This document shows, in pieces, positions 17,668-34,330 of a stretch of DNA of 64,000 nt. Position 1 is the stretch's first letter. Every line of letters begins with the position of its first letter. Made by a program: the position numbers and the translations under genes. Source of the DNA: Blautia pseudococcoides (GTDB lineage: Bacteria; Bacillota; Clostridia; Lachnospirales; Lachnospiraceae); the NCBI RefSeq assembly GCF_001689125.2, contig NZ_CP015405.2, positions 1,517,001 to 1,581,000 on the forward strand. Reading direction: 5' to 3'. The notes under the pieces were generated by a model. That model did not search any database. It saw nothing but the letters and a program-made list of their open reading frames with translations, and was not told where the DNA came from.

Positions 17668-18346
17668 ATCCGCTATTATTTTGATTTAAACGAAAGCAAT
17701 ACCCGGTTTTGGGAATACTTTGTTTAATATTGCCCGCCTCAGGTTCAAGTTCGTTTAGTTTTTTTCTAATCCGCTTAATAAGACATCAAAGCACGTTATC
17801 TGTATTACCATGCGGATAACCGCCCCAGAATACCTGATAGATCTGTTCAAACGTGTAGACCCGTCCCGGTGTTGAAGCGATCAGGTATAGGAAATCATAT
17901 TCGTATCTGGAAAGGTTTAACTCTTTTTCTTTCCAATATGCTTTCCGGAACACATAATTCATGGTTAGACCGCTTTCCTGTATATTCTGGACAGGCCTGC
18001 GCACAAGCGCATAGATCTGTGCCTGCAATTCTCCATCGGCTGTGGATTTTGTCATGGCTATATCTGCCCCTGCTTCTATACATAACATTTTTTCCTCAAT
18101 CTTCTCCGATGCTAATACAAGTATCAGTAATCTTCTAAATTTACGTATCGTTTTTATAGTACCATATGTAAATTTCATATCCTGTATCATATCCACAATG
18201 GTCAACTCATAGGAAAACATAGTTAAGTGGAACAGCCCGTCTTGCATACATTTTGTCCAGTAAGTATTTGCAAAGTTTTCAGTTAGTGTAAATATCCTGC
18301 TTTTAATTGAAGTTTCTTTGGAAATCAAAAGTATATTATACTTCAT
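17666..18346 (-). pseudogene. Atypical response regulator interrupted by in-frame TGA
   Basis: Start ATG 18346 with AGGAGGAATACAT upstream. Residues 1-110 form a receiver-like domain with Asp in LTIVDMI and Lys in AMTKS but without the usual acidic pair (ILLISKE instead). Then comes an OmpR-type winged helix that stops at TGA 17788-17786 after NTDNVL. Without that stop the same frame continues for 39 more residues, CLIKRIRKKLNELEP to TGYCFRLNQNN, which is exactly the missing recognition helix and wing. The full product would be about 226 aa. So a single nonsense change has truncated it, unless the codon is read through. Confidence 0.8.
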
Positions 18347-18374
18347 ATGTATTCCTCCTGCTAATTGCACAAAA

Positions 18375-18404
18375 GCGGTTCATACCGTTTCAAGTATAAA
18401 CCGC
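18375..18404 (-). terminator. Hairpin terminator downstream of the lipid-modification operon
   Basis: Arms 18375-18385 and 18394-18404 (11 bp, one mismatch) with a T-rich tail on the minus strand. It lies between the end of the large operon and the ribosome site of the regulator pseudogene, so it probably ends the kinase transcript. Confidence 0.5.
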
Positions 18405-18522
18405 TAAATATGAAACTACTCATTGTATAACTAATGAATCCGAAATATCTTTGTGTCAGCTTATACTTCAATTCAGAATAATTTCGTCCAGCTATTACCA
18501 ATGAAGGCTCATTTTCCCCATC

Positions 18523-18690
18523 TTAAAAAACTCCCTGATTTTCAGATATACGCAAGTCCATTACCTTTGTCCATAGTTCTAAATCTATCAGATATGTACT
18601 CCTTTTCATGATGTCACCATAAATTCTGTATGAGGAGTTATCTGCCTCCTGTATTATTTCATCCAGTTCCTCAATAAGTTCTGCTAACAA
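18523..18690 (-). CDS. Possible small ORF (55 aa) after the sensor kinase
   Basis: TTG 18690 to TAA 18523, 27 bp downstream of the kinase. The peptide reads LAELIEELDEIIQEAD near the N-terminus and YLIDLELWTKVMDLRISENQ near the C-terminus, acidic and helical, with protein-like codon use. No clear ribosome site is seen, and it could be the surviving end of a larger lost gene. Family not recognised. Confidence 0.3.
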   Translation of the reverse strand: MLAELIEELDEIIQEADNSSYRIYGDIMKRSTYLIDLELWTKVMDLRISENQGVF

Positions 18691-18717
18691 TATCTATTGA
18701 TACACAAAAAACTTTCC

Positions 18718-20040
18718 CTAACATTTATTTTCTAAACAAGGAAAAAGTATCACTAACCGGAACTGCTTTTCATCTTCTTGAACAATAGATTTTCCACCCA
18801 TTTTCTGCATCATATTATTTATATTCTGTATTCCAATCCCAGTGCTTTCTGGCTTTTTTCCTGACCTCTGAATACTGTTTTTGACAGAAAAACCGACCAT
18901 ATGCTCTTCCTGAACGGAAGAAATCTCCACCGGTGCTAACGGATCGGCATACTTCACAATATTAGAAGTCACATTGTCGAAAATCCGCATCACATAATCG
19001 GTTGAAATCTGTACAACACTATCCACCCAGTCGACATGAAATACAACCTGAAAACCTTTCTGCCCAAGAAAGCTGCAGGTCTCTGAAAACAAATCGTAAA
19101 ACAAAACTTCATACTGCTCCGGTTTTTCCAGCTCTATCTCGCCCTCTCCTGCAATCAAGGAATATTCAAAAAGATGGTCTGTCAACTGCTTCATGCGATG
19201 AGCTTTCAGGTCAATCTTATCCAGATATTCTTGAAACTGTACCTCACTCTTATACTTCCCCTTCTTCAAGATTTCCGTATAAAGCATGATAGAGGTTACT
19301 GGAGTCCGCAGGTCATGGGACATCTCTGTGACAACCCGCTGGTTTTCCCGTACCATCTCGGCTTCCTGCTGTATCAGGCTGACAAAAGAAAGCCGCATGT
19401 TGTCCAGCCCTTCTGCCAGTTCAGATAATTCATCCTTTCCCTTTACCGTAATCTTATAATCTAAACTACCGCCCTCTAAAATTCCAATCTCATCGCTTAG
19501 TTTTCGAATATAATCCATTTTCCGACGAATGCCCATAAGGACAAACAGAAGAAACAGGACAAAAGAAAGTATTATCTCACCTAGCATAACATAATTATAA
19601 AACTGATAGATATATGCGCCTGTTATGATGACTTCCGCCGTACCATCTGAAAATTCTACCATATAGGAGCTCTCCCATGCATAGTTTTCAGCTGCAATCT
19701 CTTCTTCCCATATTTCCTGCCCCTGATATTCTGAATTGAATACCAGTATTTCATCTTTATACACTCGTATGAATAATAACTGCTGCTTTTTTACCCACGC
19801 ATTCAACTTACTGGTATCTCTGGTTGAGAGTTCTTGTTGCTCAACATATTTTTGAAGTTTTACTACATATCGTTGATTCTTCTTTTCAACGTAATTTGTC
19901 CCTTCCACATAACAATCAGTCAAGTATTGCCCTGCAATATCCAAAAAACCAAACATAGCCAACGCTGCAAATGCGGATACAATCAAAAGACGCAGTAACT
20001 GTGTATAAATGGAATTTCTTCTACTCGTTTCCCGCGCCAA
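18718..20040 (-). CDS. Sensor histidine kinase of the lipid-modification operon
   Basis: 440 aa. Two membrane helices (about 12-34 and 155-177) bracket a 120-residue external sensor. A HAMP domain follows (GSLDYKITVKGKDELSELAEGLDNM), then the H box MSHDLRTPVTS with the phospho-His, the N box NVTSNIVKYA and the G box STGIGIQNI. It is a VanS/PhoR-like HisKA-HATPase kinase. It overlaps the response regulator by 20 nt, so the two are coupled. It probably senses envelope stress such as cationic peptides or membrane damage; the ligand is not deducible. It is the last large gene of the operon. Confidence 0.85.
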   Translation of the reverse strand: MARETSRRNSIYTQLLRLLIVSAFAALAMFGFLDIAGQYLTDCYVEGTNYVEKKNQRYVVKLQKYVEQQELSTRDTSKLNAWVKKQQLLFIRVYKDEILVFNSEYQGQEIWEEEIAAENYAWESSYMVEFSDGTAEVIITGAYIYQFYNYVMLGEIILSFVLFLLFVLMGIRRKMDYIRKLSDEIGILEGGSLDYKITVKGKDELSELAEGLDNMRLSFVSLIQQEAEMVRENQRVVTEMSHDLRTPVTSIMLYTEILKKGKYKSEVQFQEYLDKIDLKAHRMKQLTDHLFEYSLIAGEGEIELEKPEQYEVLFYDLFSETCSFLGQKGFQVVFHVDWVDSVVQISTDYVMRIFDNVTSNIVKYADPLAPVEISSVQEEHMVGFSVKNSIQRSGKKPESTGIGIQNINNMMQKMGGKSIVQEDEKQFRLVILFPCLENKC

Positions 20041-20737
20041 ACTTATACCCCTTTCCCCATATGGTTTTGATGTACTTCGGATCTTTCGGATTTTTCTCTA
20101 TTTTTACCCGGAGTTTCCGGATATGCACCATGACTGTACTGTTACAGGAATAAAAATAGGGTTCTTCCCACACACTTTCATAGAGGTTCTGTGCAGAAAA
20201 TATCTTTCTCGGATGCTGCATCATTAACAAAAGTATGTGGTATTCAATATCAGACATTTCTTTTTCCATACCATCGACATACACCTCGTTAAAACTTTCA
20301 TGTATTTTAATACCGCCATTTTCCAAGTATGACTCTTCTTTACCCGCTTCCGGCATATTTCTTCCCATATAGATGTTGTACCGACGCAGCAATGCTTTTA
20401 CCCTTCCCAGAAGTTCCGCATATGAAAAAGGCTTCGGCAGATAATCATCGCCCCCCGCCATCAATCCTATTAATTTATCTGACTCCTGTGCTTTTGCAGT
20501 AAGAAAAAGTACAGGAACATTAGAAACCTTCCTGATTTCTTCACAGGTCCGCAGTCCTGACAACCCAGGCATCATTACATCAAGAATAACCAAATCCGTA
20601 TTTTCATCTAAAAGTTCCAGCCCCTGTCTGCCATTCTCCGCTTCTACAACGTTGTAATTTTCGCTTTCTAATAAAATACGGACACCTTCCCGAATATCCG
20701 CATCATCTTCCACTAGCAATACACGTTCTTTACTCAT
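20021..20737 (-). CDS. OmpR/PhoB-family response regulator
   Basis: 238 aa. Receiver with acidic pair (VLLVEDDADIRE), phosphoacceptor Asp in LVILDVMMPGLSG, Thr in LFLTAK and Lys in YLPKPFSYAELLGRV. The C-terminal winged helix ends FIRKL-like VMVHIRKLRVKIEK and GKGYKFG. All catalytic residues are present. It lies 22 bp after the phosphatidylserine decarboxylase gene, in the same transcript. Tandem TCTWAA repeats upstream of the operon and of the GNAT gene are good candidate targets, which would make the system self-regulating. Confidence 0.9.
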   Translation of the reverse strand: MSKERVLLVEDDADIREGVRILLESENYNVVEAENGRQGLELLDENTDLVILDVMMPGLSGLRTCEEIRKVSNVPVLFLTAKAQESDKLIGLMAGGDDYLPKPFSYAELLGRVKALLRRYNIYMGRNMPEAGKEESYLENGGIKIHESFNEVYVDGMEKEMSDIEYHILLLMMQHPRKIFSAQNLYESVWEEPYFYSCNSTVMVHIRKLRVKIEKNPKDPKYIKTIWGKGYKFGAGNE

Positions 20738-20759
20738 ATACTATACTTCCCCTTTCTTT

Positions 20760-21575
20760 TTAAGTGTTGCCTATCTGTTCTCCCAGAAGAACTTCCGTTT
20801 CCTCATCGCGCTGGGAACGTTCCTGTATTTCATTTTTTATTTTTATGCGGTTTTTTTCTAAAAGTATAATGATGGTTGAACCGCCAAACTCAAAATACCC
20901 TTTTTCCTGTCCCTGCAGCACTTTAGGGCTACAGGGATAATTTTGAATCCTTCCTACTAAAAGTGCTCCGATTTCCATCTGGACTATATGTCCTAAAAAG
21001 TCAGATTCTATTTTCATGTATTCTCGGCAGTTTTCTATAAAAACCGGTAGCGAAGTGTATGCCACTGGGCGTACACAATGTAGTTTCCCTTCTACTTTCC
21101 GGTATTCTCGCTGAATACCTTCACAGACATAGCAATACCTATGGTAATTCTTTGGCGTTAACCGAAAAATCAAACACCAACCTTCGGAAAAATGTTTCGC
21201 CAGTTCTCTGTTCTCCAATAGTTGTTCTAAATGATACTCAATGTGCTTGATTCGATAAGTGCTGTTTTTGTCAATTGGATATACGGTCAGATACCCATCA
21301 CAGGGACTTATTAGATGCCCCGGTGTGATATCAATCCGTGTTGCACGCCGTCTTCTTGTAAAAAAATCATTAAATGAAGTATACTTCTCCTCTTCATACT
21401 CTTTTAGATTAATACCATTCTTCCTTACAAAGAGCGGTACAAGTCCTTTGGAAAATTTGGAATTAAGTATTATCCCTATTATTCTTGATATCTGCGGCTT
21501 TACAAGTATTTTCAAAATACACCGTCCGGGGATGGTATGATATAAAAATCGGATAAACAGTGTATCTTTCTTCAT
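20760..21575 (-). CDS. psd: Phosphatidylserine decarboxylase proenzyme
   Basis: 271 aa, the PSD-B type. Features: NDFFTRR near residue 60-70, the SPCDG motif, the HRYCYVCEG segment that replaces the common HRYHAPVSG, and FGGSTIII near the C-terminus, where cleavage before the Ser would create the pyruvoyl cofactor. It turns phosphatidylserine into phosphatidylethanolamine at the membrane. Its ATG overlaps the PssA stop by 4 nt, so substrate maker and user are coupled. Most Firmicutes with a single phosphatidylethanolamine pathway carry these two genes elsewhere; here they sit inside a surface-modification operon. Confidence 0.85.
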   Translation of the reverse strand: MKKDTLFIRFLYHTIPGRCILKILVKPQISRIIGIILNSKFSKGLVPLFVRKNGINLKEYEEEKYTSFNDFFTRRRRATRIDITPGHLISPCDGYLTVYPIDKNSTYRIKHIEYHLEQLLENRELAKHFSEGWCLIFRLTPKNYHRYCYVCEGIQREYRKVEGKLHCVRPVAYTSLPVFIENCREYMKIESDFLGHIVQMEIGALLVGRIQNYPCSPKVLQGQEKGYFEFGGSTIIILLEKNRIKIKNEIQERSQRDEETEVLLGEQIGNT

Positions 21576-22222
21576 ACTTCTAATCCCAAGCCCAATAACA
21601 GGATAACAAATTCTACCACTCCCGTAAATATAATACCAATTTTTCCTGCCAGATACGGTTTCTTTATTTTAAAAGGCAGTACAAATGCCACAGCCATCAT
21701 GACAAGAGCTGTCTGCAAAGTTCCTCCATAAGCCAATTTATTTTCTATCATATAGCAGACAGGCACAACCAATGCTACTGCAGTAACCGGGAGTCCCAGA
21801 TACCACGCCCGTCTTCCGCTTTCCTTTTCCTGCCTTTCTACTTCCATAACATTAAAATATGCCAAACGAATCAGCGCACATAACACATACAAAGCCGCTG
21901 TCAAAAAAGAAAGATATGTTTTGCCACTGATACTGTATAAAAGCAAAGCTGGGAGAATGCCGAAGCATATTAGATCGCTTAAAGAATCAATCTGAATCCC
22001 AAACTGTTTTTCCCTTGCATCCCTTTGTTTTGTCGCCGCAACTGTTCCATCAAACATATCACAGATTCCGGAAATCATCAGGCAGATAACTGCCTGCCGG
22101 TATTTGCCTTCAGTCACAAGCACAATTCCTGTAAACCCCATAAGCATGCCCAAATAAGTCAGAACGACCGTATAGTTATAGTATCCACATAGTTTTTTTC
22201 TTTCTTCCATCTCTCTTCTCAA
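21572..22222 (-). CDS. pssA: CDP-diacylglycerol-serine O-phosphatidyltransferase
   Basis: 216 aa, six or seven membrane helices. The CDP-alcohol phosphotransferase signature DxxDGxxAxxxxxxxxxGxxxDxxxD is visible in CDMFDGTVAATKQRDAREKQ followed by FGIQIDSLSD. It joins CDP-diacylglycerol and serine to make phosphatidylserine for the next gene. An internal start at 22210 (MEERKKLCG) is equally possible. Part of the minus-strand operon, 90 bp after the VTT-domain gene. Confidence 0.85.
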   Translation of the reverse strand: MRREMEERKKLCGYYNYTVVLTYLGMLMGFTGIVLVTEGKYRQAVICLMISGICDMFDGTVAATKQRDAREKQFGIQIDSLSDLICFGILPALLLYSISGKTYLSFLTAALYVLCALIRLAYFNVMEVERQEKESGRRAWYLGLPVTAVALVVPVCYMIENKLAYGGTLQTALVMMAVAFVLPFKIKKPYLAGKIGIIFTGVVEFVILLLGLGLEV

Positions 22223-22311
22223 TCTTTCCCTGCGTTTTGCAATGACAGCTCCCTTTCGCGAAATGGAGTGCCCATACTTATCCGCAGAATTCTCCTTTTA
22301 TTATATTAGTC

Positions 22312-22902
22312 CTATCTACCAAGTGAATTAGAAAATATCAAGCTATATACAAAAATACACCAGGGTTTTCCCAAAACAATAATTGTTACAAATTTGCGGA
22401 CACTCATATTTGTAACTCCGGTAAAATAGCAAAAATAATCATCCGGAAACAGTGGCAGCACCATACCAAGAAACAGAATCCCGGTATAGGACTTACTTTT
22501 AGCTGCCCAATCCGCCCACTTTTCATACCTCTTTCCCGGAAACATTCTGCTGACCAATCCTTGCCCATACCTTCTCGCCAGTAAAAATGCGATAATGGAT
22601 CCTACCGAAATTCCAATATAATTGCACCAAAAGCCACCCATGCATCCAAACATGACAGCTCCGACAACGCATCCTAAGAATCCTGGCAGTATCGGCAGCA
22701 CTACCTGCGCTGCCTGAATGGCTGTCAGAATGACCGGGGCCATCAGACCAAATCCCGCGATGTACTTTTGCAGAGTATCAACAGAGTCGAACTTTCCATC
22801 CAAATATGCTTTAAACAGCAACACGCAAAAGGCCAGACATACAAGCAGAAATATCGCTGTTATCCACTTTTTCCAGTTTTCTGTTTGTTTTATTCTTATC
22901 AT
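22312..22902 (-). CDS. VTT/DedA-family (TVP38/TMEM64) membrane protein
   Basis: 196 aa with about five membrane segments and the VTT-domain core: LPILPGFLGCVVGAVMFG, then ISVGSIIAFLLARRYG and FLGMVLPLFPDDYFCYFTG. Members of the DedA superfamily have been linked to moving lipids such as undecaprenyl phosphate or phosphatidylethanolamine across the bilayer. Next to pssA and psd, a role in moving phosphatidylethanolamine or a carrier lipid is a reasonable inference. Its first 92 nt overlap the end of the SGNH gene, an unusually long overlap, although a GGTGATGAG ribosome site precedes this start. Confidence 0.75.
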   Translation of the reverse strand: MIRIKQTENWKKWITAIFLLVCLAFCVLLFKAYLDGKFDSVDTLQKYIAGFGLMAPVILTAIQAAQVVLPILPGFLGCVVGAVMFGCMGGFWCNYIGISVGSIIAFLLARRYGQGLVSRMFPGKRYEKWADWAAKSKSYTGILFLGMVLPLFPDDYFCYFTGVTNMSVRKFVTIIVLGKPWCIFVYSLIFSNSLGR

Positions 22903-23887
22903 CTCTCATCACCATCAACGATTTTTCTAATTTCCTCGTATAATCTTCTGCTTCTTTCATCCATGCAGTGTAGTCACTTTCCCCCCTATGGTCAGGGAGT
23001 ACATACTTCTTGGTCAAAAATCCCCCCAGATATTGTGTAACCTTCCTGGCACCCGACAGATTCAGATGATCACCTTTATCCAAACTGTCAGTATTCCAAT
23101 CAATCCCAACTTCTTTCAGTTTCATATTCATATCCAGGTATTCCAGATTGTGCTCCTTTGCATATGCATCAATGCTATTGTGCCTTCGATAATTATAATT
23201 TAATGGAGATGGCGTTCCTAAAAGAAGCAACTTAGCTCCATTTTGCTTGCAAAGATTTATGATATCCCCCATATAATTTTTTACCATAGACGGCATTTCC
23301 TCTTTCTGCTCGGTTTCCAGCATATAATCTCCCTTTTCATATGGCTGTACACCACACCTTAACGCAAATCCTTTGAAATTTTCTTCTGGATACTCTTTAT
23401 CCATTACAAAAGATTTCCAAATATCATGCCCACGGAAAATCGGGATATAGTTGTTTGCCCATTCTTCCAGTGTTTCTTTTAGATTAATCAAATCCTGTCC
23501 CCCTCTTCCCCTGAACATAGTGTTTGTTTCCAATATAACCAATTTGGGTGACTGTGCAGTAAATACATTTTCAAGCATATGAAATGTTTCCTGTATCTTT
23601 TGTCCTGATTGGCCGCAAACATAAGCAGTAATCCCATGATTCTTCCATAAATCCATTGGCGAGACTGATGAATAACTCAGACTATCACCCACAACGATCA
23701 CATCTATGCTGTTTTCCGGCTCCCTTAAAATCCGAAAGGTACTTTTATTCCTGCTCTGAACCAGATTATCATTTTCTATACAAGCCAGCTCTATTTTTTC
23801 TGATACTCCTACTAAAATTACAATCAGAACCGAAAAAAATACAATTAGTGTTCCTGCTCTGTTTCGTATACTTTTAAAATCCCGCAT
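22811..23887 (-). CDS. SGNH-hydrolase / DltD-like membrane-anchored protein
   Basis: 358 aa. One N-terminal membrane anchor (about 13-30), then an extracellular SGNH-type domain: VVGDSLSYSSV holds the catalytic Ser, GQSGQK and LLLGTPSPLNYNY the oxyanion-hole blocks, and KGDHLNLSG the Asp-x-His pair. DltD and AlgX/AlgJ proteins use this fold to pass an acyl group from an MBOAT partner to a surface polymer, and the MBOAT gene lies directly upstream with a 14-nt overlap. The C-terminal 30 residues overlap the VTT gene and look less conserved. Confidence 0.75.
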   Translation of the reverse strand: MRDFKSIRNRAGTLIVFFSVLIVILVGVSEKIELACIENDNLVQSRNKSTFRILREPENSIDVIVVGDSLSYSSVSPMDLWKNHGITAYVCGQSGQKIQETFHMLENVFTAQSPKLVILETNTMFRGRGGQDLINLKETLEEWANNYIPIFRGHDIWKSFVMDKEYPEENFKGFALRCGVQPYEKGDYMLETEQKEEMPSMVKNYMGDIINLCKQNGAKLLLLGTPSPLNYNYRRHNSIDAYAKEHNLEYLDMNMKLKEVGIDWNTDSLDKGDHLNLSGARKVTQYLGGFLTKKYVLPDHRGESDYTAWMKEAEDYTRKLEKSLMVMRDDKNKTNRKLEKVDNSDISACMSGLLRVAV

Positions 23888-25463
23888 AAATCATGTCCAC
23901 CTGCTGATAACCGCTTCCGTAGGCTCCAAAGATTACCACCGCCAGAATGAGTCCATAATAGACCGCCCATCTGAACGGAAGACACAATTTCCCGATTCCT
24001 TCTTCACCCAGCAGACCCCTTTCTTTTATCATTCCGACCACGGCCACCACCATACACCCAGCTATAATGGCATAATAGTCTGCCTGGTCCAATCCAAAGG
24101 TAAGCAGCGTCCCATCCCATAATTTCTGCAACTCGAAATTCCGAAACATACTTCTAAACATCCGAAATCCGGCAGCCAGACCATTTGCCCGGAAAAACAG
24201 TTCTCCAACAAATATAATAAGCCAAGTTTTTAAAACCTGTGGAACCCTATAATAAAACGCATGCTCATTCAAATGGGCATACTTTATGATTCTATCTCTG
24301 ATTGGCTCAAGAGCGACTCCGGTCAGAAGAATCACAAAATAATACATCCCATAGAAAATATAACTCCACCTTGGGCCATGCCACAGACCGTTAAACAGCC
24401 ACACTGGAAATAGGCAAAACGCAGAGACACCAAGCTTTGTGATGTACTTTCCCAAATGTTTTTTCCCGAATTTATTCCATTTTTTTACTGCTGCAGATAC
24501 CGATACCGGATAAAAAATATAGGTTTTAAACCATACGCCCAGCGTGATATGCCACCGTCTCCAGAATTCTGCTGCATTTTTTGAGGCAAAGGGCTGACAG
24601 AAATTTTCAGGCAAAGTCACACCGAACATTCTGCCACTCCCTATGATGATATCCATACACCCCGAAAATTCCATATAGAGCTGGATGGTATAGGCCACAG
24701 CCGCAACTGCAATTATCACTCCATGATAATTCTCATAATGCTCAAAAACAGCCTGTACCAACACATAGAGACGGTCTGCAATGACCATTTTTTTGAATAA
24801 TCCCCACAGAATCCTGACACAGCCTTTAGATATATTTTCTCCTCTTAGGGAAGTCCCTGCCCAAAGTGTATCTGTGGTCTGGGAATACAGACTGATCGGT
24901 CCTTCCATAATCTGTGGAAAAAATCCAAGGAACAATGCCACCTTTCCCGGATGCTGTTGTCCGTCGATTTTTTCCCAATAGACATCTATTATATAGCCAA
25001 TAGCCTGTAAGGTGTAAAAGGAGATTCCAATGGGAAGCACCAGTATTTTAGCATCTAATAAAAGTTGGCTCCCTATTCCCTGCAACAGAATATTCGCATT
25101 CTGTATGAAAAAATTATAGTATTTTAGATATGCAAGTGCAGATATCAGTATAAAAATTCCACCAGCCAGTATTTGTTTCTCTTTTTTCTTATATCGTTTC
25201 TTAATGGCATTGCTTTCTTCTCTGTGCAATCCTGATGTATTCATCTTACACTGAAGTTTTACTGAAGAGATCCACACGCCTATGTAATGGGTTACCAGTG
25301 TCGTCCCCACTAGATACAAAACCAATTTGCCGCTGACCGTCCAGAAAAACGTATAGCCACATAACACTAATGTCATCCATCGGAACTTTTTCGGCGTCAA
25401 CTGATAGGCAAGAAGTGCTGCCGGCAAAAACAGGAATAAATATATGGACGTATGATAAGCCAT
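23874..25463 (-). CDS. MBOAT O-acyltransferase (DltB/AlgI-like)
   Basis: 529 aa with about 11 membrane helices. Conserved MBOAT signatures are FFPQIMEGPIS, FWRRWHITLGVWFKTYIFYPV and NGLWHGPRWSYIFYG, the last with the invariant catalytic His. DltB takes an aminoacyl group from a carrier protein in the cytoplasm and moves it through the membrane to the outer face. The protein is longer than standard DltB (about 400 aa) and nearer AlgI size. It starts 1 nt after the carrier-protein gene, so the pair very probably works together. Confidence 0.85.
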   Translation of the reverse strand: MAYHTSIYLFLFLPAALLAYQLTPKKFRWMTLVLCGYTFFWTVSGKLVLYLVGTTLVTHYIGVWISSVKLQCKMNTSGLHREESNAIKKRYKKKEKQILAGGIFILISALAYLKYYNFFIQNANILLQGIGSQLLLDAKILVLPIGISFYTLQAIGYIIDVYWEKIDGQQHPGKVALFLGFFPQIMEGPISLYSQTTDTLWAGTSLRGENISKGCVRILWGLFKKMVIADRLYVLVQAVFEHYENYHGVIIAVAAVAYTIQLYMEFSGCMDIIIGSGRMFGVTLPENFCQPFASKNAAEFWRRWHITLGVWFKTYIFYPVSVSAAVKKWNKFGKKHLGKYITKLGVSAFCLFPVWLFNGLWHGPRWSYIFYGMYYFVILLTGVALEPIRDRIIKYAHLNEHAFYYRVPQVLKTWLIIFVGELFFRANGLAAGFRMFRSMFRNFELQKLWDGTLLTFGLDQADYYAIIAGCMVVAVVGMIKERGLLGEEGIGKLCLPFRWAVYYGLILAVVIFGAYGSGYQQVDMIYAGF

Positions 25464-25464
25464 A

Positions 25465-25692
25465 TCAGTTCTCCTTTAACCTCTGCACCATTTTCCATAT
25501 AGCATCCACAGAGTTCAGATTCTCAGGAACAATTTCCACCGCCTCTATTTCAATAGCAAATACTTCTTCAAGCTCCGAGATAAGAGTAATTACTCCGAAA
25601 GAATCCAACAGCCTGTCGTCAATCAATGAATTTTCCTTCTTCCAATCAATACTTTCATCAATTTCCATTAAAATATTCATCAATGCTTCCAT
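25465..25692 (-). CDS. Acyl/aminoacyl carrier protein (DltC-like)
   Basis: 75 aa, four-helix carrier protein. The phosphopantetheine Ser is in LLDSFGVITL; the acidic surface before and after it (ISELEEVFAIEIE) is typical. DltC has the comparable DSMGTV. It should carry the amino acid activated by the adenylating enzyme as a thioester. The start lies inside the end of the decarboxylase gene (35-nt overlap), and the MBOAT gene follows immediately. Confidence 0.85.
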   Translation of the reverse strand: MEALMNILMEIDESIDWKKENSLIDDRLLDSFGVITLISELEEVFAIEIEAVEIVPENLNSVDAIWKMVQRLKEN

Positions 25693-26875
25693 CGTCTATC
25701 TCATCCTCCATATTCCATTTATATGTCTCCAGTTTTTTCCTTGCCAGCTTCCATCCCATTTCTTTACTGTAAAACGCAGCCTGTGGTAATTCATGACTTA
25801 AGAACATCGCCATTCCCTCCGTTATGGCATAAGCTCCCACACGTTCAAAAATCAGTACATTTCCAACCCTCAAATTTTTAATTGCCACATTCTGCACCAA
25901 TATATCATTAACCGTACAGAGAGATCCACAGACGGTATATGTTTTTTCTATACCAAACTCGTGCTCTGGGCTTACCTGAAGCTTCGGACAATACATACCT
26001 CTAATCTGTCCATCATAATGAATTTGATGAATCCCACCATCTACGATGCAGTAATTCCTGTCGTTGTTCAGCTTAATATCCTTTACGCTAGTCAGATAGT
26101 ACCCACATCTTGCTGAAAGTGCACGTCCCATCTCCAGCATAACACTTCCTTTCCATTGCATTGCCGGAATTTGTTCGGCAATCATATGGATGTTTTCCTC
26201 CATCATATCCTGCTGTCCATCAAAATACGAAACAGGAATTCCAGGGCCATACTCCAATTCTTCTATTTGAAATCCGGATGTTTTTTCCAATTCCCTTAAA
26301 AAATTATCCAGATATGCTAACTCCTTTTTTATCTTTTCCATTGATTTTTTCTGTGTTCCGGAAAAGTAATGGATTCCCTGAATTTTCAAAAATGGACACA
26401 TCTCCCTCATAGATACTATATTTTGAATAATTTCTGCATCCATGCCAAACTGATTTCCGCTGCTCAGTCTGAGATATACATGAATTACTTCATTATTAGC
26501 ATCGCACCACTCTGCAAAGGCATGGAACTGATTCAGGGATTCAATGGTATAGGTACATGCTCCCCTGTAATATCTCAGAATTGAATAAATATCCTCTTTT
26601 TCCTTCAACACACCTGATATCAGTATTTTTTCAGGCTCGATTTCAAGTTTCCTACAAATTTCAAATTCTCCCATTGAGCAGACTTCGATCCGGTCTATGA
26701 GGGCTGCCATCTGCCTTGTCAAAAATGGATTGGCTTTCATAGCAAAACAAAGCCCTGCCTTCCCTGCCAGTTCATTCCGAATGAGCAATACCGTGTCTCT
26801 CATTTCGTCCATATTGAATACATAGAGAGGTGTACCATATCTCACAATTCCATATTCCAAATATTCCATTTCCAT
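25658..26875 (-). CDS. Fold-type III PLP amino-acid decarboxylase (LysA/BtrK-like)
   Basis: 405 aa, alanine-racemase-fold decarboxylase. PLP Lys47 in FAMKANP; NQFGM (141-145); His169 in IHYFSGTQ; the glycine loop YGPGIPV (209-215); EMGR (248-251) for phosphate contact; the catalytic Cys320 in CGSLCTVNDI with Asp324; C-terminal GAYAITEGMAMF. The closest families are diaminopimelate decarboxylase and BtrK, which decarboxylates glutamate bound to a carrier protein in butirosin synthesis. Here it stands between an adenylating enzyme and a carrier protein, so a carrier-bound substrate is possible. It is not part of normal dlt operons. No lysine-pathway neighbours are present. Confidence 0.8.
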   Translation of the reverse strand: MEMEYLEYGIVRYGTPLYVFNMDEMRDTVLLIRNELAGKAGLCFAMKANPFLTRQMAALIDRIEVCSMGEFEICRKLEIEPEKILISGVLKEKEDIYSILRYYRGACTYTIESLNQFHAFAEWCDANNEVIHVYLRLSSGNQFGMDAEIIQNIVSMREMCPFLKIQGIHYFSGTQKKSMEKIKKELAYLDNFLRELEKTSGFQIEELEYGPGIPVSYFDGQQDMMEENIHMIAEQIPAMQWKGSVMLEMGRALSARCGYYLTSVKDIKLNNDRNYCIVDGGIHQIHYDGQIRGMYCPKLQVSPEHEFGIEKTYTVCGSLCTVNDILVQNVAIKNLRVGNVLIFERVGAYAITEGMAMFLSHELPQAAFYSKEMGWKLARKKLETYKWNMEDEIDDGSIDEYFNGN

Positions 26876-26879
26876 TTCA

Positions 26880-28385
26880 TCACCCCAACTTCTGCCGGAA
26901 ATACTCCCTGTCTATTTTTCCATTTTTGTTTAATGGCATCAAATCTGTTTTTATCAACTTATGAGGAATCATATAGGCCGGGAGTTTTTCCTTCATCTGT
27001 TTCAAAATCTGTTCCTTACTTACATCCCCCATATAAAATGCCACCAGTCTGTTTGTTCTCTGATCCATCAGGCATAAGCCTCTCTCCAGACCGTCAGTCT
27101 GATCCATTGCATGCTCGATTTCTTCTAGTTCAATTCGATGTCCCATGTGTTTAATCTGAAAATCTTTCCGTCCAGAGAAGTAAAGTTCACCATCTTTTCC
27201 GTAGAATCCCAAATCGCCGGTTTTATAACAACGCACACCTCCATCACCACCTCGCACATAAAATATAAATTTCTCTTTTGTTTCCTTGGGGTTGTGATAA
27301 TATCCATCCGACAGCGACTCTCCTGAAACACAAATTTCCCCAACCATTCCTGGAGATACAATTTCTTTTTCATTTTCGTCTAAAAGGAACACATCTCTGC
27401 CCGGAAATGCTTTTCCAATCGGAATTTTTTCTCCGTCCTGAAGCATTTCTTTTACCCGATAATACGTGCAGTTGCAGGTGATTTCCGTAGGTCCGTATAA
27501 ATTAACAAATTCTGCACTTGGTAATGCTGCCTGCCATATTCTGAGCTGCTTTACTGGCATGATTTCTCCGCTGAAAAGAATCTTTTTTACCGTCAAAGGT
27601 ACTTGATAGGCAAGTCCTTTTAATGCTGACACCAGACTGAGGGCGGACACTGCCCATATAAGTGCGGTTACTTTCTTTTCACAAATATAATTAAGCAGTA
27701 GAGGTGGCGCAGAAAACATTTCTTTTGGAATAATAACAAGCTCTGCCCCAGTAAACATACTGGTATAAATATCTTTCACTGACACATCAAAATCAAAAGG
27801 TGCCTGATTTCCAATCCTGTCATGAACTGTGAATCCGAATGTATCCACGAAATGTGTGATAAAGTCCATCACTGCCCGGTGGCTGACTACGATTCCTTTC
27901 GGTTTTCCGGTTGAACCGGAAGTAAAGATTCCATACAGGATATCTGTATCCCGACAGCCCCTTCGGATCTTCTGAAGAACTTGCCAATCTGTCTGTTCAT
28001 TCATGGCATCCTTTACCAGATATGTATTCCTCTTGTAATCTATCTGTACTAAAAGTTCCCTTGTTCTGTCATTTGTCACAATAAGCTCCGGCTCCAGCAC
28101 ATTCAAAATCTCCTGTATTCTTTGCGCTGGCTGCGAAGGCTCAACTACAACATAGAAACATCCGGCATATACCGCCCCAAACATAGCTGCCAGCGTGACC
28201 GAACTTTTTTCTGCCAATATGACAATTGGCTGCCCTGGCTCTGTTTTTCCTGCAAATGCTGTCCCCATCTGTCTGGATAACTCTGCTAATTCTTTCCAGG
28301 TAAATACAAAGATTCCATCGTCCAACGCTGTGCGACAGGGGTATTGCTGTTCTGTCTTTTCCAAAAACTCCAGTATATTCTTCAT
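26880..28385 (-). CDS. Amino-acid adenylating enzyme (DltA-like)
   Basis: 501 aa, ANL superfamily, the length of DltA (about 505). A3 TSGSTGKPKG (155-164), A4 NQAPFDFDVSVKDIY with the Asp that usually holds an alpha-amino group, A5 LYGPTEITCNCTYY, A7 YKTGDLG, A8 GRKDFQIKHMGHRIELEEIE, A10 NKNGKIDR with the catalytic Lys. It activates an amino acid with ATP and loads it on the carrier protein. D-alanine is the DltA substrate, but the decarboxylase next door suggests a different one. GAAAGGAAT precedes the start; a terminator-like hairpin separates it from the lipoprotein gene upstream. Confidence 0.85.
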   Translation of the reverse strand: MKNILEFLEKTEQQYPCRTALDDGIFVFTWKELAELSRQMGTAFAGKTEPGQPIVILAEKSSVTLAAMFGAVYAGCFYVVVEPSQPAQRIQEILNVLEPELIVTNDRTRELLVQIDYKRNTYLVKDAMNEQTDWQVLQKIRRGCRDTDILYGIFTSGSTGKPKGIVVSHRAVMDFITHFVDTFGFTVHDRIGNQAPFDFDVSVKDIYTSMFTGAELVIIPKEMFSAPPLLLNYICEKKVTALIWAVSALSLVSALKGLAYQVPLTVKKILFSGEIMPVKQLRIWQAALPSAEFVNLYGPTEITCNCTYYRVKEMLQDGEKIPIGKAFPGRDVFLLDENEKEIVSPGMVGEICVSGESLSDGYYHNPKETKEKFIFYVRGGDGGVRCYKTGDLGFYGKDGELYFSGRKDFQIKHMGHRIELEEIEHAMDQTDGLERGLCLMDQRTNRLVAFYMGDVSKEQILKQMKEKLPAYMIPHKLIKTDLMPLNKNGKIDREYFRQKLG

Positions 28386-28409
28386 ATTGTATTCCTTTCA
28401 AGAAAAATG

Positions 28410-28432
28410 GGCCACATGTTCCCATGTGGTCC
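28410..28432 (-). terminator. Terminator/attenuator between lipoprotein gene and adenylating-enzyme gene
   Basis: On the minus strand a 10-bp stem (one mismatch) with a GGAA loop is followed by ATTTTTCTT, 25 nt before the next start. It would let only part of the transcription from the upstream promoter continue into the operon, or protect an mRNA end. Confidence 0.6.
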
Positions 28433-28443
28433 ATTCTGCTTAA

Positions 28444-28854
28444 TTATTCTTCTTTGTCTTTTGTTGTCGAACCACTTTTATTGGATTTCTGCACTGTGCT
28501 GTTTTTCTTTGTTGAATTCTTTTTAGTTGAATTCTTTTGGGTTGATTTCTTTGTGTCAGACTTTTTGTCTGCTCCATCCTGCGCCTTTGTATCATCTGTC
28601 TTATTCTGATCCGCTCCGGTCTTACTCTGTGGTTCTTCAATATCTACATCATCCTTTTTCTCTGTCTGGGAAGATGGTTTCTTATTTGTCTTTTTATTTG
28701 TAGACTGCTCAGTTTGTGTTTTCGACGCTTTTGTATCTGATTTCTTATCCTTTCCACCACAGGCTACCAGCCCTAGTGCCATTACGCCAATCATGCAGAA
28801 CACAAGTCCTTTCTTTAAAAATCCTTTCCATTTCTTATTGCGAATATTATTCAT
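28444..28854 (-). CDS. Small lipoprotein with Lys/Ser/Thr-rich tail
   Basis: 136 aa. Lipoprotein signal with membrane core and lipobox LGLVACGG, Cys at about residue 32. The rest is low complexity, rich in Lys, Ser, Thr, Asn, Gln and Asp, with the repeat KKNST three times. No domain is recognised; it looks like a flexible, charged cell-surface tether. First gene after the repeat-type operator, so probably the most strongly expressed product of the regulon. AAGGAG lies upstream of the ATG. Confidence 0.7.
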   Translation of the reverse strand: MNNIRNKKWKGFLKKGLVFCMIGVMALGLVACGGKDKKSDTKASKTQTEQSTNKKTNKKPSSQTEKKDDVDIEEPQSKTGADQNKTDDTKAQDGADKKSDTKKSTQKNSTKKNSTKKNSTVQKSNKSGSTTKDKEE

Positions 28855-29006
28855 GGTTAAACTCCTTTCTAAATAGTGGCATATATCTTACATGCCATCA
28901 TGGTTTCCCTTATTGGGATTCTACTATGTACTACCTTTTTCTGTTGGTAATTTCTCTGCCAGACAAACGTATCCACTGGCTTTCTCCTTTTATCTCCTTT
29001 CCACAA

Positions 29007-29032
29007 TTATCAAAAGCTGTTCCTTTTGATAA
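29007..29032 (-). promoter_or_regulatory. Hairpin at the 5' end of the operon leader
   Basis: Arms 29007-29016 and 29023-29032 are a perfect 10-bp stem with a 6-nt loop, directly after the predicted transcription start and about 150 nt before the lipoprotein gene. It may stabilise the mRNA 5' end. Confidence 0.45.
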
Positions 29033-29036
29033 GTTT

Positions 29037-29091
29037 ATTATGGCAGTAACATCTTAACCGTTTCTAAATGAATTCTAAACAAATCTAAACT
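29037..29091 (-). promoter_or_regulatory. Operator (four TCTWAA direct repeats) and promoter of the operon
   Basis: On the plus strand TCTTAA, TCTAAA, TCTAAA and TCTAAA follow each other at 11, 11 and 10 bp (29052-29090), one helical turn each, as expected for dimers of an OmpR-type regulator. A -10-like CATAAT (29042-29037, minus strand) follows with no good -35, the usual design of an activator-dependent promoter. The operon's own regulator is the natural candidate. Confidence 0.55.
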
Positions 29092-29092
29092 C

Positions 29093-29374
29093 TCATTCTT
29101 TTGATTTAGAAATATAATCTCTTTTGTAAACTCTTCTAATATCTTTTAGTATCTGACCGATTCCAGAACTTCCTTTTTTCTTAGTCGATCTGCCATTCGC
29201 CCTGTCATCAGTTTCTAATTCAAAAGTTATACTTTTTTGAATTACAGAAAAATTTTGGCTACTCAATTCATTTATCTCTGTATTTTGAGTAAGTTTGTTT
29301 TGAATATTGACTACAAAATTTGTTATAACCAACACTGTCAATATCATAAATTTTATTCTTTTACTAATTCTCAA
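29093..29374 (-). CDS. Unknown secreted or membrane-anchored small protein
   Basis: 93 aa from TTG 29374, with AGGAGGTGA immediately upstream. One membrane or signal segment (about residues 8-24, FMILTVLVITNFVV), then a polar tail with a Lys-rich patch (RSTKKKGSSG). No family recognised. It overlaps the previous small membrane gene by 11 nt, so the two form a pair, and it ends at the operator of the large operon. Confidence 0.5.
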   Translation of the reverse strand: MRISKRIKFMILTVLVITNFVVNIQNKLTQNTEINELSSQNFSVIQKSITFELETDDRANGRSTKKKGSSGIGQILKDIRRVYKRDYISKSKE

Positions 29375-29702
29375 TCACCTCCTGCTTCAAAGATGTACCT
29401 ATTATCGCAAGTAATGCTGAATAGATTCTGAAGGAAGTCTTAATAAATCTAATCTGCAATCCGGAAAATATTATGAATATCAGAACATGACGATAATAGT
29501 TGATGAAAACAAATATTACTATTTCTGCCATAACAGGAAGAAGTTGAGGTATTTCCAAGTAAAAAATAGAAGAATATTCAAGAAATAAAAATAGAAATGA
29601 ACATACCACCGTTTTCCTTAACAAAACGATTAAAATTTGACTCAAAAAATTTAAAAGGAAGGCAATAGAGAGTTGAGAAACAATACATCCTCTTTCTTTC
29701 AA
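29364..29702 (-). CDS. Unknown small membrane protein
   Basis: 112 aa from TTG 29702 (AAGGAAGG upstream). Three or four hydrophobic segments (LSIAFLLNFLSQILIVLL, CSFLFLFLEYSSIFYL, IVIFVFINYYRHVLIFIIF). It has some look of the C-terminal half of an AgrB-like protein, but the catalytic His and Cys of AgrB were not found, so no function is given. AT-rich. Possible truncated relic. Confidence 0.45.
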   Translation of the reverse strand: MKERGCIVSQLSIAFLLNFLSQILIVLLRKTVVCSFLFLFLEYSSIFYLEIPQLLPVMAEIVIFVFINYYRHVLIFIIFSGLQIRFIKTSFRIYSALLAIIGTSLKQEVIEN

Positions 29703-29747
29703 TTAGCCTTCCTTAGCTTTTTATTATATTTGAACTACTTAAAACAT

Positions 29748-30272
29748 TTAATTATTTTTATCCCCCATAATCTTTTCAAACCGAAACATACACCAATCAT
29801 CTTCTCCCTTCTTCTCTTCATGGGAATCCAAATGATGTGGATTTAAAAACTCAACAATTTTGAAGCCACACTTATTCACGTAAAAATGAATATTTCTTTT
29901 TTCAAAATATGGCGTAACTGTTTCCCAGACTTTCGTATCTGGATACATTTGTTCTATTTTTCTCCATGCAGCCAGACCTAATCCCTTATTGTGATATGTC
30001 CTATTGATAAATAATAACTCCAGCGAATTGTGCTGTGTCTTTGCATTTATAACAATCACCACACCTCCCGTAATCTTTCCATTGGAGATAATGTGATAAG
30101 TCTCTGCTCCCTTGGTATCCATCGCATCTGTAATGTCCACCCTTGGAATAATTTCTTCCTCCTGTTCTCCGAATGCTTCTACAACTGCAGTTGCAAATGC
30201 TTTCTGTAAGTCTTTAATAAACCATTCCCGTTCATTTTCTTTGATTGCAATCAACTCTATATTGCGCTCCAT
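29748..30272 (-). CDS. GNAT-family N-acetyltransferase
   Basis: 174 aa from ATG 30272, preceded by AAAGGAG; a start 12 codons earlier lacks a site. GNAT core: the strand GGVVIVINAKTQHNSLELLFI, the acetyl-CoA loop RTYHNKGLGLAAW, and the final strand FYVNKCGFKIVEF. It transfers an acetyl group to an amine; the acceptor is unknown. A repeat-type operator like that of the surface-modification operon lies just upstream, so it may belong to the same regulon, perhaps as a stress or resistance function. Confidence 0.8.
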   Translation of the reverse strand: MERNIELIAIKENEREWFIKDLQKAFATAVVEAFGEQEEEIIPRVDITDAMDTKGAETYHIISNGKITGGVVIVINAKTQHNSLELLFINRTYHNKGLGLAAWRKIEQMYPDTKVWETVTPYFEKRNIHFYVNKCGFKIVEFLNPHHLDSHEEKKGEDDWCMFRFEKIMGDKNN

Positions 30273-31668: not shown

Positions 31669-34330
31669 ATAGTGATAGGTAATTCTTTGATATTATCTCC
31701 GAATTTTCCCCCACTCTACACCGTACATGAGACTTTCACCTCATACGGCGTGCCATCTACTCCAATGTATCTATTTTTCTGATTGATTAGCCAGTTCATG
31801 TAATTCTATACATAACTTCCTTTTTTGTTCTGATAACTGATACTTCTCCATTAGATTGTCAAGTTCTTTTCTATCCCTTTTATGAATTGCTTTATGAAAT
31901 GGTAGTATCATAATAATAAGATTGTTATATTTGTCTGTTCCACCATATTTCAAGGGAACTTTATGATGACACTCCCAATCCCTCAACGTTAATTCTTCGC
32001 CACTGATTGCACATTTTCCATATTGAGAAATAAATTTTGAGATACGATTATCGTTATATTCAATAGAACGATAATCACAATAATATCTCTGTATGTGTAT
32101 AAGAACTTCCCTGCTCACCGCTTTTAGATTATTGTGTATCAAGGCTCTTCCTTCTTTTGTATATGGACAGATATTTTGATTGAATTGTATCGCATACCTG
32201 TGTTTCCATGTGTATATAGGAATGATAATCATATCGTGAGCTTTATACCATTTTGGATTATACCTGCCATAACGTTTTAAAAGTGTTATGGATAAATCTG
32301 CTTTACTCGCTGGTCTCCAATCTCTTCTCAGCCTGTTGTATAAAGATTTTGTAAGGTGTTGACTCATATGGGCTAAATCTCTGTTTACGTGCGTGGCTAC
32401 TTCATAGTAATTATGGATTCCCATTACTACCGTATTATATTTCCACACTGCGTCACGTGATTGTTCCTTTGCAATCCTTTTAATAGATTGTTTTAGTTTA
32501 TCATGTGCATGTCTGATTGCCTTGTCACTCATGTGACTATAAGCCACATAACCATTTCTTTTTGGTCTTACATACATAGTAAAACCCAGAAATTCACTTC
32601 GCTGTTTTCTAAGATTGACTATTTTTGATTTTTCGGGACTGATTTCCAATTTCAATCTTCTTTCAATAAAATCTTGCGTAGCATGATACAATCTCAATGC
32701 ACTCGGATAATCTCGACAGAAGATTTTAAAATCATCGGCATAACGAACCATATAGCAATGTTTTAGATTCTTCCTTTGTCTCATCAAGGCTCTTCTTGCA
32801 CCCTTATGTGTTGTATATTCTCTTATAGTTTTGATTGTTTCCCACTGATTGCTAATCCACCAGTCAAGTTCATTCAACACAATATTTGCCAATAACGGAC
32901 TTAATATACCGCCTTGCGGTGTTCCTTTTATCGGCTTACCCTCTCCGATAATTTCTGCTTTTAATAAAGTGGAAATTATGGAAAGCAGTTTCTTTTCTCG
33001 TATTCCCATTGTCCACATTTGTTTTAGCAATTTTCCATGATTTACATTATCAAAAAATCCTTTAATGTCCATATCAACACAATAATGGTATCCGTTCCCT
33101 TTATTATTCATAAAATGATTTGCTCTTGCTATTGCATGATGAGCACTTCTGTTTGGTCGGAATCCGTAACTGTGTGGATGAAATTTTGCTTCACATATAG
33201 GTTCTAAAATCTGAAGAATACATTGTTGGAATAACCTGTCCCATATAGCGGGAATGCCTAACGGTCGTTTCCGTCCATCAGGTTTAGGGATATACACTCT
33301 TCGGACTTTTTCAGGTTCATACCATTTGAACATTTCCCGTATTTTTGTTACAACTTCCTCAACTGTCAAATCTTCGATGTCAGCTATTGTTTTTCCATCA
33401 ACACCAGCAGTATGACTGCCCATGTTCTTCTTTATATTCCGATAGGCTAATCGGATATTTTCTTCACTTTCCATAAGCTTTGTCAGCTTATAAAAGTTAT
33501 TTCCATTCTTGCTTTGCATATATAATTGGTCTAATTTAGACTGCATATCATAATACTCAGCGTACCTTAGTTTGTTTGTCTTTTTAATAAGTTGGCTCCT
33601 CCTTAATTGAGGTTTGCCCTTTTTAGTCTCACCAGAACCTTATTCTAACAACTTACTAAGAAGAATGAATGATACATCTTTCATAGACTAGTGACCGTCC
33701 CTCCACGTTTGTTAGACGCTTCATCAGTACCATGTCACCGCTTTCACTGCCATAAATAAAGTTATACTTCTGCTATTTTCACAAAAGATTTCCTTTCAAC
33801 CACTTCATAGAAGATATTTTCTCCATGTTGGCAGCTTCCAACGTTCCATTACTTTTATCTTTACATATACTTTTAGGATTCTCCTTTGAGCCTGTCAGCT
33901 TGTTACTGCCTTTAACAATAAACGGATTTTCATAACAACTAATCTTACTCGTCCGCACTGACACCACGCACGTGGCATACACATTTCTGTGCATTAGGGT
34001 TATAGACCCGTACATTCGGAGATTCGTCAGGTTCGTCTCGCCAATAGTTTTGCGAACCCATTCTATCCATGAGTATTTTATAGACTCCCGGTCTATGGGT
34101 GACACCGCCCACCTCTGAGCAGATTTCGTAGCATTTGATAATGCTTTACGGTCACTTTCAACCGACTTCACCGAGCTTCATACGGTTCATGTTAATATCA
34201 ACTTTTCCCGCATGTCGGAGTATTAGAGGAAACCCTTTGTGGCGTTACCCACTCATTTGATTTCTCAAAGTAATAGTTCTAAACAGCACTTGCTGTCTGC
34301 CTAGCCTTTTCAGCTAGGAACGTTTCACAC
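31669..34330 (-). mobile_element. Group II intron 1, inside the lysozyme/CHAP gene
   Basis: The 5' end GTGTGAAACG is at 34330-34321. Domain V (GCCGTATGAGGTGAAAGTCTC to TACGGTG) is near 31716-31750, and the 3' end is ...CACTAT at 31669. With these ends the flanking exons join in frame (1165 + 614 nt = 593 codons), which supports the boundaries. It carries its own maturase gene. Same class as intron 2 by maturase and 5' end (ACGTTCC). Confidence 0.85.
31771..33546 (-). CDS. ltrA: Group II intron reverse transcriptase/maturase with HNH nuclease
   Basis: 591 aa, full length. RT domain with PKPDGRKRPLGIPAIWDR, GFRPNRSAHHA, the PQGG motif (KGTPQGGILSPLLANI) and the YADD active site; maturase domain X at about 370-450; C-terminal HNH endonuclease (WECHHKVPLKYGGTDKYNNL, HKAIHKR). 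It promotes splicing of its own intron and insertion into DNA. As intron 2 has a broken relative of this gene, this maturase could also serve that intron. Confidence 0.9.
   Translation of the reverse strand: MQSKLDQLYMQSKNGNNFYKLTKLMESEENIRLAYRNIKKNMGSHTAGVDGKTIADIEDLTVEEVVTKIREMFKWYEPEKVRRVYIPKPDGRKRPLGIPAIWDRLFQQCILQILEPICEAKFHPHSYGFRPNRSAHHAIARANHFMNNKGNGYHYCVDMDIKGFFDNVNHGKLLKQMWTMGIREKKLLSIISTLLKAEIIGEGKPIKGTPQGGILSPLLANIVLNELDWWISNQWETIKTIREYTTHKGARRALMRQRKNLKHCYMVRYADDFKIFCRDYPSALRLYHATQDFIERRLKLEISPEKSKIVNLRKQRSEFLGFTMYVRPKRNGYVAYSHMSDKAIRHAHDKLKQSIKRIAKEQSRDAVWKYNTVVMGIHNYYEVATHVNRDLAHMSQHLTKSLYNRLRRDWRPASKADLSITLLKRYGRYNPKWYKAHDMIIIPIYTWKHRYAIQFNQNICPYTKEGRALIHNNLKAVSREVLIHIQRYYCDYRSIEYNDNRISKFISQYGKCAISGEELTLRDWECHHKVPLKYGGTDKYNNLIIMILPFHKAIHKRDRKELDNLMEKYQLSEQKRKLCIELHELANQSEK

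Follow-up and report, generated by a model that had tools for sequence, protein, structure and literature searches.

What is a decarboxylase that depends on pyridoxal phosphate (PLP) doing between the adenylating enzyme and the carrier protein of an operon that otherwise resembles dlt? The question is raised by positions 18718-28854 of a 64,000-nucleotide stretch of the Blautia pseudococcoides genome (the window; the genome is a single contig of 5.13 Mb), where the frame list gives eleven open frames, all on the minus strand, with gaps of at most 89 bp or with overlaps. The preliminary description of this DNA had named the eleven genes, and the frame coordinates and family scans confirmed these names. 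The operon was found to consist of a conserved five-gene core and a local add-on, and the core would encode, with a probability that we put at about 60%, a Dlt-like pathway of envelope acylation in which the carrier-bound amino acid is decarboxylated.

Conservation and spread of a five-gene core

The core encodes a stand-alone, DltA-like amino-acid adenylating enzyme (A; 26880-28385, minus strand, as for all genes of the operon), with 335.7 bits on TIGR01733 (cut-off 317.4); a fold-III PLP decarboxylase of the BtrK/DapDC superfamily (DC; 25658-26875), with both ornithine/diaminopimelate/arginine decarboxylase domains; a stand-alone carrier protein of 75 residues (CP; 25465-25692); an MBOAT acyltransferase (23874-25463); and an SGNH-type protein (22811-23887), presumed to be the final acyltransferase. 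A and DC are separated by 4 bp, DC and CP overlap by 35 bp, CP and MBOAT lie 1 bp apart, and MBOAT and SGNH overlap by 14 bp.

A scan of 84,980 species genomes with a DC profile yielded 469 candidate stretches, the best 80 of which were kept as comparison loci. In 71 of these 80 loci, the five core genes all share one strand and span no more than 6.5 kb; among the other nine, seven lie at contig ends, and in two (L043 and L044) a carrier gene was not detected between DC and MBOAT. Thus the decarboxylase-carrier-MBOAT trio, whose search across genomes had been suggested as a check in the preliminary description, does co-occur. Counted singly, A was present in 79 loci, CP and MBOAT in 77 each and SGNH in 76, compared with 43 for the response regulator (RR), 40 for the histidine kinase (HK), 13 for the lipoprotein-like gene and eight each for the VTT, Pss and Psd genes. 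(One A shorter than 400 residues among the 79 loci, and three of the 77 MBOAT and two of the 76 SGNH sequences below 85% length, were dropped from the residue counts.) At least three gene orders were observed (A-DC-CP-MBOAT-SGNH, MBOAT-SGNH-DC-CP-A and MBOAT-SGNH-A-DC-CP) with the same membership, so the five-gene set is held together though its order is not. One locus with the core (L076) belongs to a record titled Streptococcus suis SSHP-D; its nearest matches are from Clostridia, and the record is probably mislabelled.

Among 397 genomes of the same family, the DC profile matched 217 at 1e-3, most of them weakly and probably via LysA, and 89 at E 2.3e-50 or better, which are partly the same genomes as those of the best 80 loci. 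In a class sample of 391 genomes, 17 matched at 1e-40, including 11 outside the family; all five genes were found in eight of these 11, one was cut by a contig end and two were other clusters. In a phylum sample, DC matches were found in 5 of 398 genomes. DltA exceeded its cut-off in eight of the 397 family genomes and reached at least 428 bits in 19, the next value dropping to 370 bits; six of these 19 genomes also had a strong DC match. Strong DC matches are therefore commoner in this family sample than DltA matches at that level.

Enzymes of the proposed pathway

Ten pocket positions of A were mapped by motif in an alignment of 79 sequences (the window and 78 loci), and are numbered as in GrsA. 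The window enzyme carries the code DVKILSLCNK, in which D235, K239, S301, C330, N331 and K517 are invariant in 79/79, while the code of the genome's own DltA, DLMVLCTVAK, differs at seven of the ten positions. Another 18 DC loci have a long A, whose code was DVK..CNK in 12, IARGCSQASK in four and a different one in two. Position 239 is K or R in both code classes that adjoin DC and M in the genome's own DltA; a basic residue there would fit a second carboxylate on the substrate. The four loci with IARGCSQASK (L134, L135, L137 and L139) represent a second decarboxylase class with the order A-CP-DC-MBOAT, in which I replaces D235. Naming the exact amino acid from the code was considered and rejected, since the code classes match no single known code with certainty.

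The best PDB match of DC was BtrK (2j66; E 3e-23, 85.5 bits), annotated there as L-glutamyl-[BtrI acyl-carrier protein] decarboxylase, followed by DapDC (2p3e; 7.5e-21, 77.6 bits). K47 (the PLP lysine), R251, C320 and D324 are kept in 80/80 relatives, and position 321 is T in 78 and S in two; DC thus has CT as in BtrK, whereas DapDC and the genome's own LysA have CE. Position 321 is presumably the one that contacts the distal amine in DapDC. By its nearest solved structure and its retained decarboxylase residues, DC is therefore BtrK-like. The lysA model (cut-off 297.9) gave 150.8 bits for DC and 282.5, also slightly under, for the own LysA (L126); DC as the LysA of the lysine pathway was rejected, because this separate LysA lies at about 2.616 Mb. 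A precedent for loading followed by decarboxylation is described in PMC11284099, where VinN loads 3-methyl-Asp on the stand-alone acyl carrier protein (ACP) VinL, VinO acts as decarboxylase once the thioester has formed, the acid already decarboxylated is not used as a substrate when free, and FlvN selects Asp. DC probably acts on a carrier-bound amino acid, which would alter the amine group delivered to the envelope. In two other loci (L180:5741-8560, plus strand; L181:4713-8057, minus strand), the DC frame continues into a predicted transmembrane segment and a long extracellular portion, which by eye looks transglutaminase-like; the topology was also judged by eye.

At the transfer end, CP gave a weak PP-binding match and scores below cut-off on AmcB-like and DltC-like models, and its carrier serine S31 is present in 77/77. 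The Pfam score of MBOAT was 26.5 as a protein, just below the cut-off of 27, and 33.1 with the neighbouring stretches. Its residues H305, H362, Y526 and F529 are invariant in 74/74 full-length relatives, and it ends in the hexapeptide MIYAGF, whose first position among the 74 is L in 54, M in 11, P in five and F in four. The protein thus has the catalytic His and the C-terminal FXYXXF-type motif of MBOAT-SGNH envelope acyltransferases, with a first position that is mostly not F. According to PMC12148441, this acyl-shuttle hexapeptide is carried by DltX in Dlt, but by the MBOAT itself in pathways of the PatAB kind, where there is no carrier protein; FIYANF, the peptide of NgPatA, is an acetyl donor for PatB. 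Judged by its genes and motif, the present system is a mix of these two arrangements, a carrier plus a fused shuttle motif. The SGNH protein had no Pfam, NCBIfam or PDB match, and its residues G67, S69, N254, D270 and H274 are present in 74/74 relatives.

A DC-type enzyme removes the carboxylate beside the amino group, so the thioester on the carrier must use another carboxyl; loss of the alpha-carboxyl on the carrier therefore points to a dicarboxylic substrate, namely Glu (giving gamma-aminobutyrate, GABA), Asp (giving beta-alanine) or diaminopimelate (DAP, giving lysine). In the pathway that we propose, A would adenylate such an amino acid (Glu or Asp being the likeliest) and load CP via the side-chain carboxyl, after which DC, in the manner of BtrK or VinO, would remove the free alpha-carboxylate to leave GABA-CP or beta-alanyl-CP. 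MBOAT would carry the acyl group through the membrane to the Tyr in the hexapeptide at its own C terminus, and the SGNH protein would take the group from this Tyr and esterify an extracellular polymer; the adjoining two-component pair probably controls expression. What was observed is gene content, conservation, catalytic residues, the motif and co-occurrence. Every chemical step is modelled on the precedents BtrI/J/K, VinN/L/O, DltABCDX and PatAB, and we infer the substrate, the polymer and the role of the pathway. The earlier proposal that an amino acid is activated and then decarboxylated on the carrier is thus retained as the best reading (a code unlike that of DltA, a DC nearest to BtrK, a separate LysA), with its substrate corrected to a dicarboxylic amino acid if the alpha-carboxyl is lost.

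Competing explanations and known systems

The alternative that survives best is that A loads meso-DAP via the L-centre carboxyl and DC, like LysA, takes the carboxyl off the D-centre, which would leave lysyl-CP and put a lysyl ester on the polymer. In ordinary pockets, D235 holds the alpha-amine beside the activated carboxyl, and its presence in all 79 A sequences fits this route, as does the match of DC to the lysA model. We nevertheless hold it unlikely: DC has T or S at the position where the own LysA has E, D235 is missing in the four DC loci of the second class, and lysine could be loaded directly. A similarly low likelihood is given to DC as an epimerase that converts an L- to a D-aminoacyl thioester, with a D-aminoacyl ester as the product, much as in Dlt. 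The closest named relative of DC, 93% identical and from Muricomes sp. OA1, bears the NCBI name 'alanine racemase', an Ala_racemase_N match of 33.8 bits was obtained, and D-Ala is the Dlt substrate; but the alr model was missed by far (29 vs a cut-off of 168), the architecture is that of a two-domain decarboxylase, and C320 and D324 are kept in 80/80 as in BtrK.

Gene linkage alone would look the same if DC worked on the free amino acid and A then loaded the product (e.g., GABA or beta-alanine), with no on-carrier chemistry. This is improbable given that A keeps a basic pocket residue (K/R), needless for a product without a second carboxylate, and that with VinN and VinO, the precedent, the decarboxylated acid was no substrate in its free form (PMC11284099). 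Transfer of the acyl group to a secreted small molecule or a lipid head group, rather than to an envelope polymer, is very improbable: antibiotic pathways do begin with the same loading trio (BtrI/J/K, VinN/L/O), and PssA and Psd adjoin the core in 8/80 loci, but MBOAT-SGNH pairs with a shuttle motif are known for envelope polymers (PMC12148441), and the 16 largest neighbour clusters examined held no recurring polyketide, peptide or export genes.

Several points also weigh against on-carrier decarboxylation with envelope acylation, the reading that we prefer. The lead of BtrK over DapDC is small (85.5 vs 77.6 bits), and the lysA and exosortase-associated models give DC equal scores. The retention of D235 in 79/79 fits loading through the alpha-carboxyl, or DAP, better than side-chain loading. 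Four DC loci have the different code IARGCSQASK, and among 20 hand-picked loci in which A stands free and DC is missing, three (L158, L160 and L166) have DVK..CNK; decarboxylation can therefore not be predicted from the code. The carrier gene is missing in L043 and L044, and the full core was found in only 11 of the 20 weakest of the 89 strong family matches, where some contigs are short and two loci (L138, L146) are other clusters. Finally, the SGNH assignment is presumed from conserved residues (S69, D270 and H274) and from the position beside MBOAT.

The window operon as the canonical dlt of this genome was rejected, since dltABCD lies at about 4.99 Mb; the operon is thus an extra system rather than the local Dlt. 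In the canonical set, B, C and D all pass the curated cut-offs (DltB 482.8, cut-off 375; DltD 330.4, cut-off 150), and DltA passes NF003417 (559.3 vs 476) and falls just under TIGR01734 (545.4 vs 559.85). The window proteins fall short of the equivalogs: A reached 305 bits on the DltA model (559.85), MBOAT 136.7 on the DltB model (375), and CP, its carrier serine present, 26.1 vs 68 and 18.4 vs 52.35 for DltC. The SGNH protein had no NCBIfam match up to E 0.01 and so does not qualify as DltD. A separate DltX shuttle peptide was not found among the window's listed frames of at least 60 residues, the motif being at the MBOAT C terminus instead.

The system shares with DltABCD(X) the adenylating enzyme, stand-alone carrier, MBOAT, presumed SGNH protein and Tyr shuttle logic, and differs in its decarboxylase, its pocket code and a shuttle motif fused to MBOAT. 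Like PatA-PatB and other MBOAT-SGNH O-acyltransferases, it has the shuttle hexapeptide at the MBOAT C terminus; those enzymes use acyl-CoA without a carrier (PMC12148441), whereas the window has a carrier and an adenylating enzyme. With VinN/VinL/VinO and FlvN, which provide macrolactam starters, it has in common adenylation, loading of a stand-alone ACP and, as proposed here, decarboxylation on the carrier; those proteins feed a polyketide synthase, without MBOAT or SGNH. The likeness to BtrI/BtrJ/BtrK lies in the PLP decarboxylase, nearest to BtrK, but the butirosin system makes a soluble antibiotic side chain, and its loading enzyme is of another type than A. By model names, the same two enzyme families adjoin in the exosortase-A-associated ligase and decarboxylase (TIGR03098, TIGR03099), on which the window proteins score far below the cut-offs (A 186 vs 592; DC 151 vs 478); a single search of the open-licence literature found nothing on the role of that set.

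The other six genes vary among the loci. Downstream of SGNH lie a VTT/DedA-like membrane protein gene (22312-22902; PF09335, 69.1 bits), a PssA-like CDP-alcohol phosphatidyltransferase gene (21572-22222; PF01066 above cut-off, TIGR00473 98.3 bits vs 107) and a Psd-like phosphatidylserine decarboxylase gene (20760-21575; PF02666, 158.7 bits). SGNH and VTT overlap by 92 bp, VTT and Pss are 89 bp apart, and Pss and Psd overlap by 4 bp. The SGNH frame, with 358 residues vs 332 in the near relative L004, extends into the VTT frame (22811-22902). The preliminary description had counted PssA, Psd and VTT as part of the system; this was not borne out, and the phosphatidylethanolamine genes were rejected as a core part, because they adjoin it in only eight of 80 loci, which include the window's closest relatives, and the genome has a second Pss-Psd pair (L114) at about 0.73 Mb. 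After a gap of 22 bp follow the OmpR-type RR (20021-20737; Pfam match) and, overlapping it by 20 bp, the sensor HK (18718-20040), whose best below-cut-off NCBIfam match is VanS-type. At the other end, 58 bp before A, a lipoprotein-like leader gene rich in Lys, Thr and Ser (28444-28854) appears to be accessory. A terminator-like hairpin on the minus strand between this gene and A (28412-28429) is weak, with eight such sites vs 5.7 expected in shuffles. A promoter scan was uninformative (32 sites vs 32.3 in shuffles), and an RNA element was rejected, as 18000-30000 gave no Rfam match at gathering score. Outside the operon, a 591-residue frame (31771-33546, minus strand) resembles by eye a group II intron reverse transcriptase whose end is of the HNH type.

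Possibly exchangeable tailoring genes and their meaning

In 13 of the 20 hand-picked DC-less loci, CP, MBOAT and SGNH were also present. Two of the three that share the window's code class contain a Formyl_trans_N gene (L158:2-850, minus strand; L166:8322-9188, plus strand) and the third a GNAT gene (L160:9572-10483, plus strand); none of the three genomes belongs to the 217 that the DC profile matched, a search in which at most four candidates per genome were scored. Other codes stand beside GNAT genes, namely DNLFLCLDAK (L147, L151) and DAKDMLLGDK (L163). These cassettes suggest swappable tailoring steps. Since formyltransferase and GNAT would neutralise the amine, the charge-raising role that the preliminary description had assigned to the operon did not hold up as a general feature of the wider family.

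From the formyltransferase and GNAT cassettes, which are few loci, we tentatively propose, as a possibility somewhat short of even odds, that Dlt-like acylation in Clostridia, above all Lachnospiraceae, is a modular platform. A, the carrier, the shuttle-motif MBOAT and the SGNH protein would stay constant while the on-carrier tailoring enzyme (PLP decarboxylase, formyltransferase or GNAT) is exchanged; different bacteria would attach GABA or beta-alanine, or else N-formyl or N-acetyl aminoacyl groups, to the envelope by ester links, and the tailoring gene would set the sign of the charge.

With its decarboxylase, the core represents a widespread variant of Dlt-like/MBOAT-SGNH acylation, for which no description was found in the open-licence literature: among the papers listed there, none dealt with a Dlt-type operon with a decarboxylase, judged by titles, or with GABA or beta-alanine esters of teichoic acids. 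A published survey scored the complete dltABCD in none of the eight gut commensal strains of its Table 2 (PMC10877564), and searches for dltABCD would not count systems like the window operon. The enzyme set makes the proposed reading directly testable in vitro. If it is true, the envelope of a common group of gut bacteria would be decorated with groups other than D-alanine, which would matter for antimicrobial peptides, phages and recognition by the immune system.

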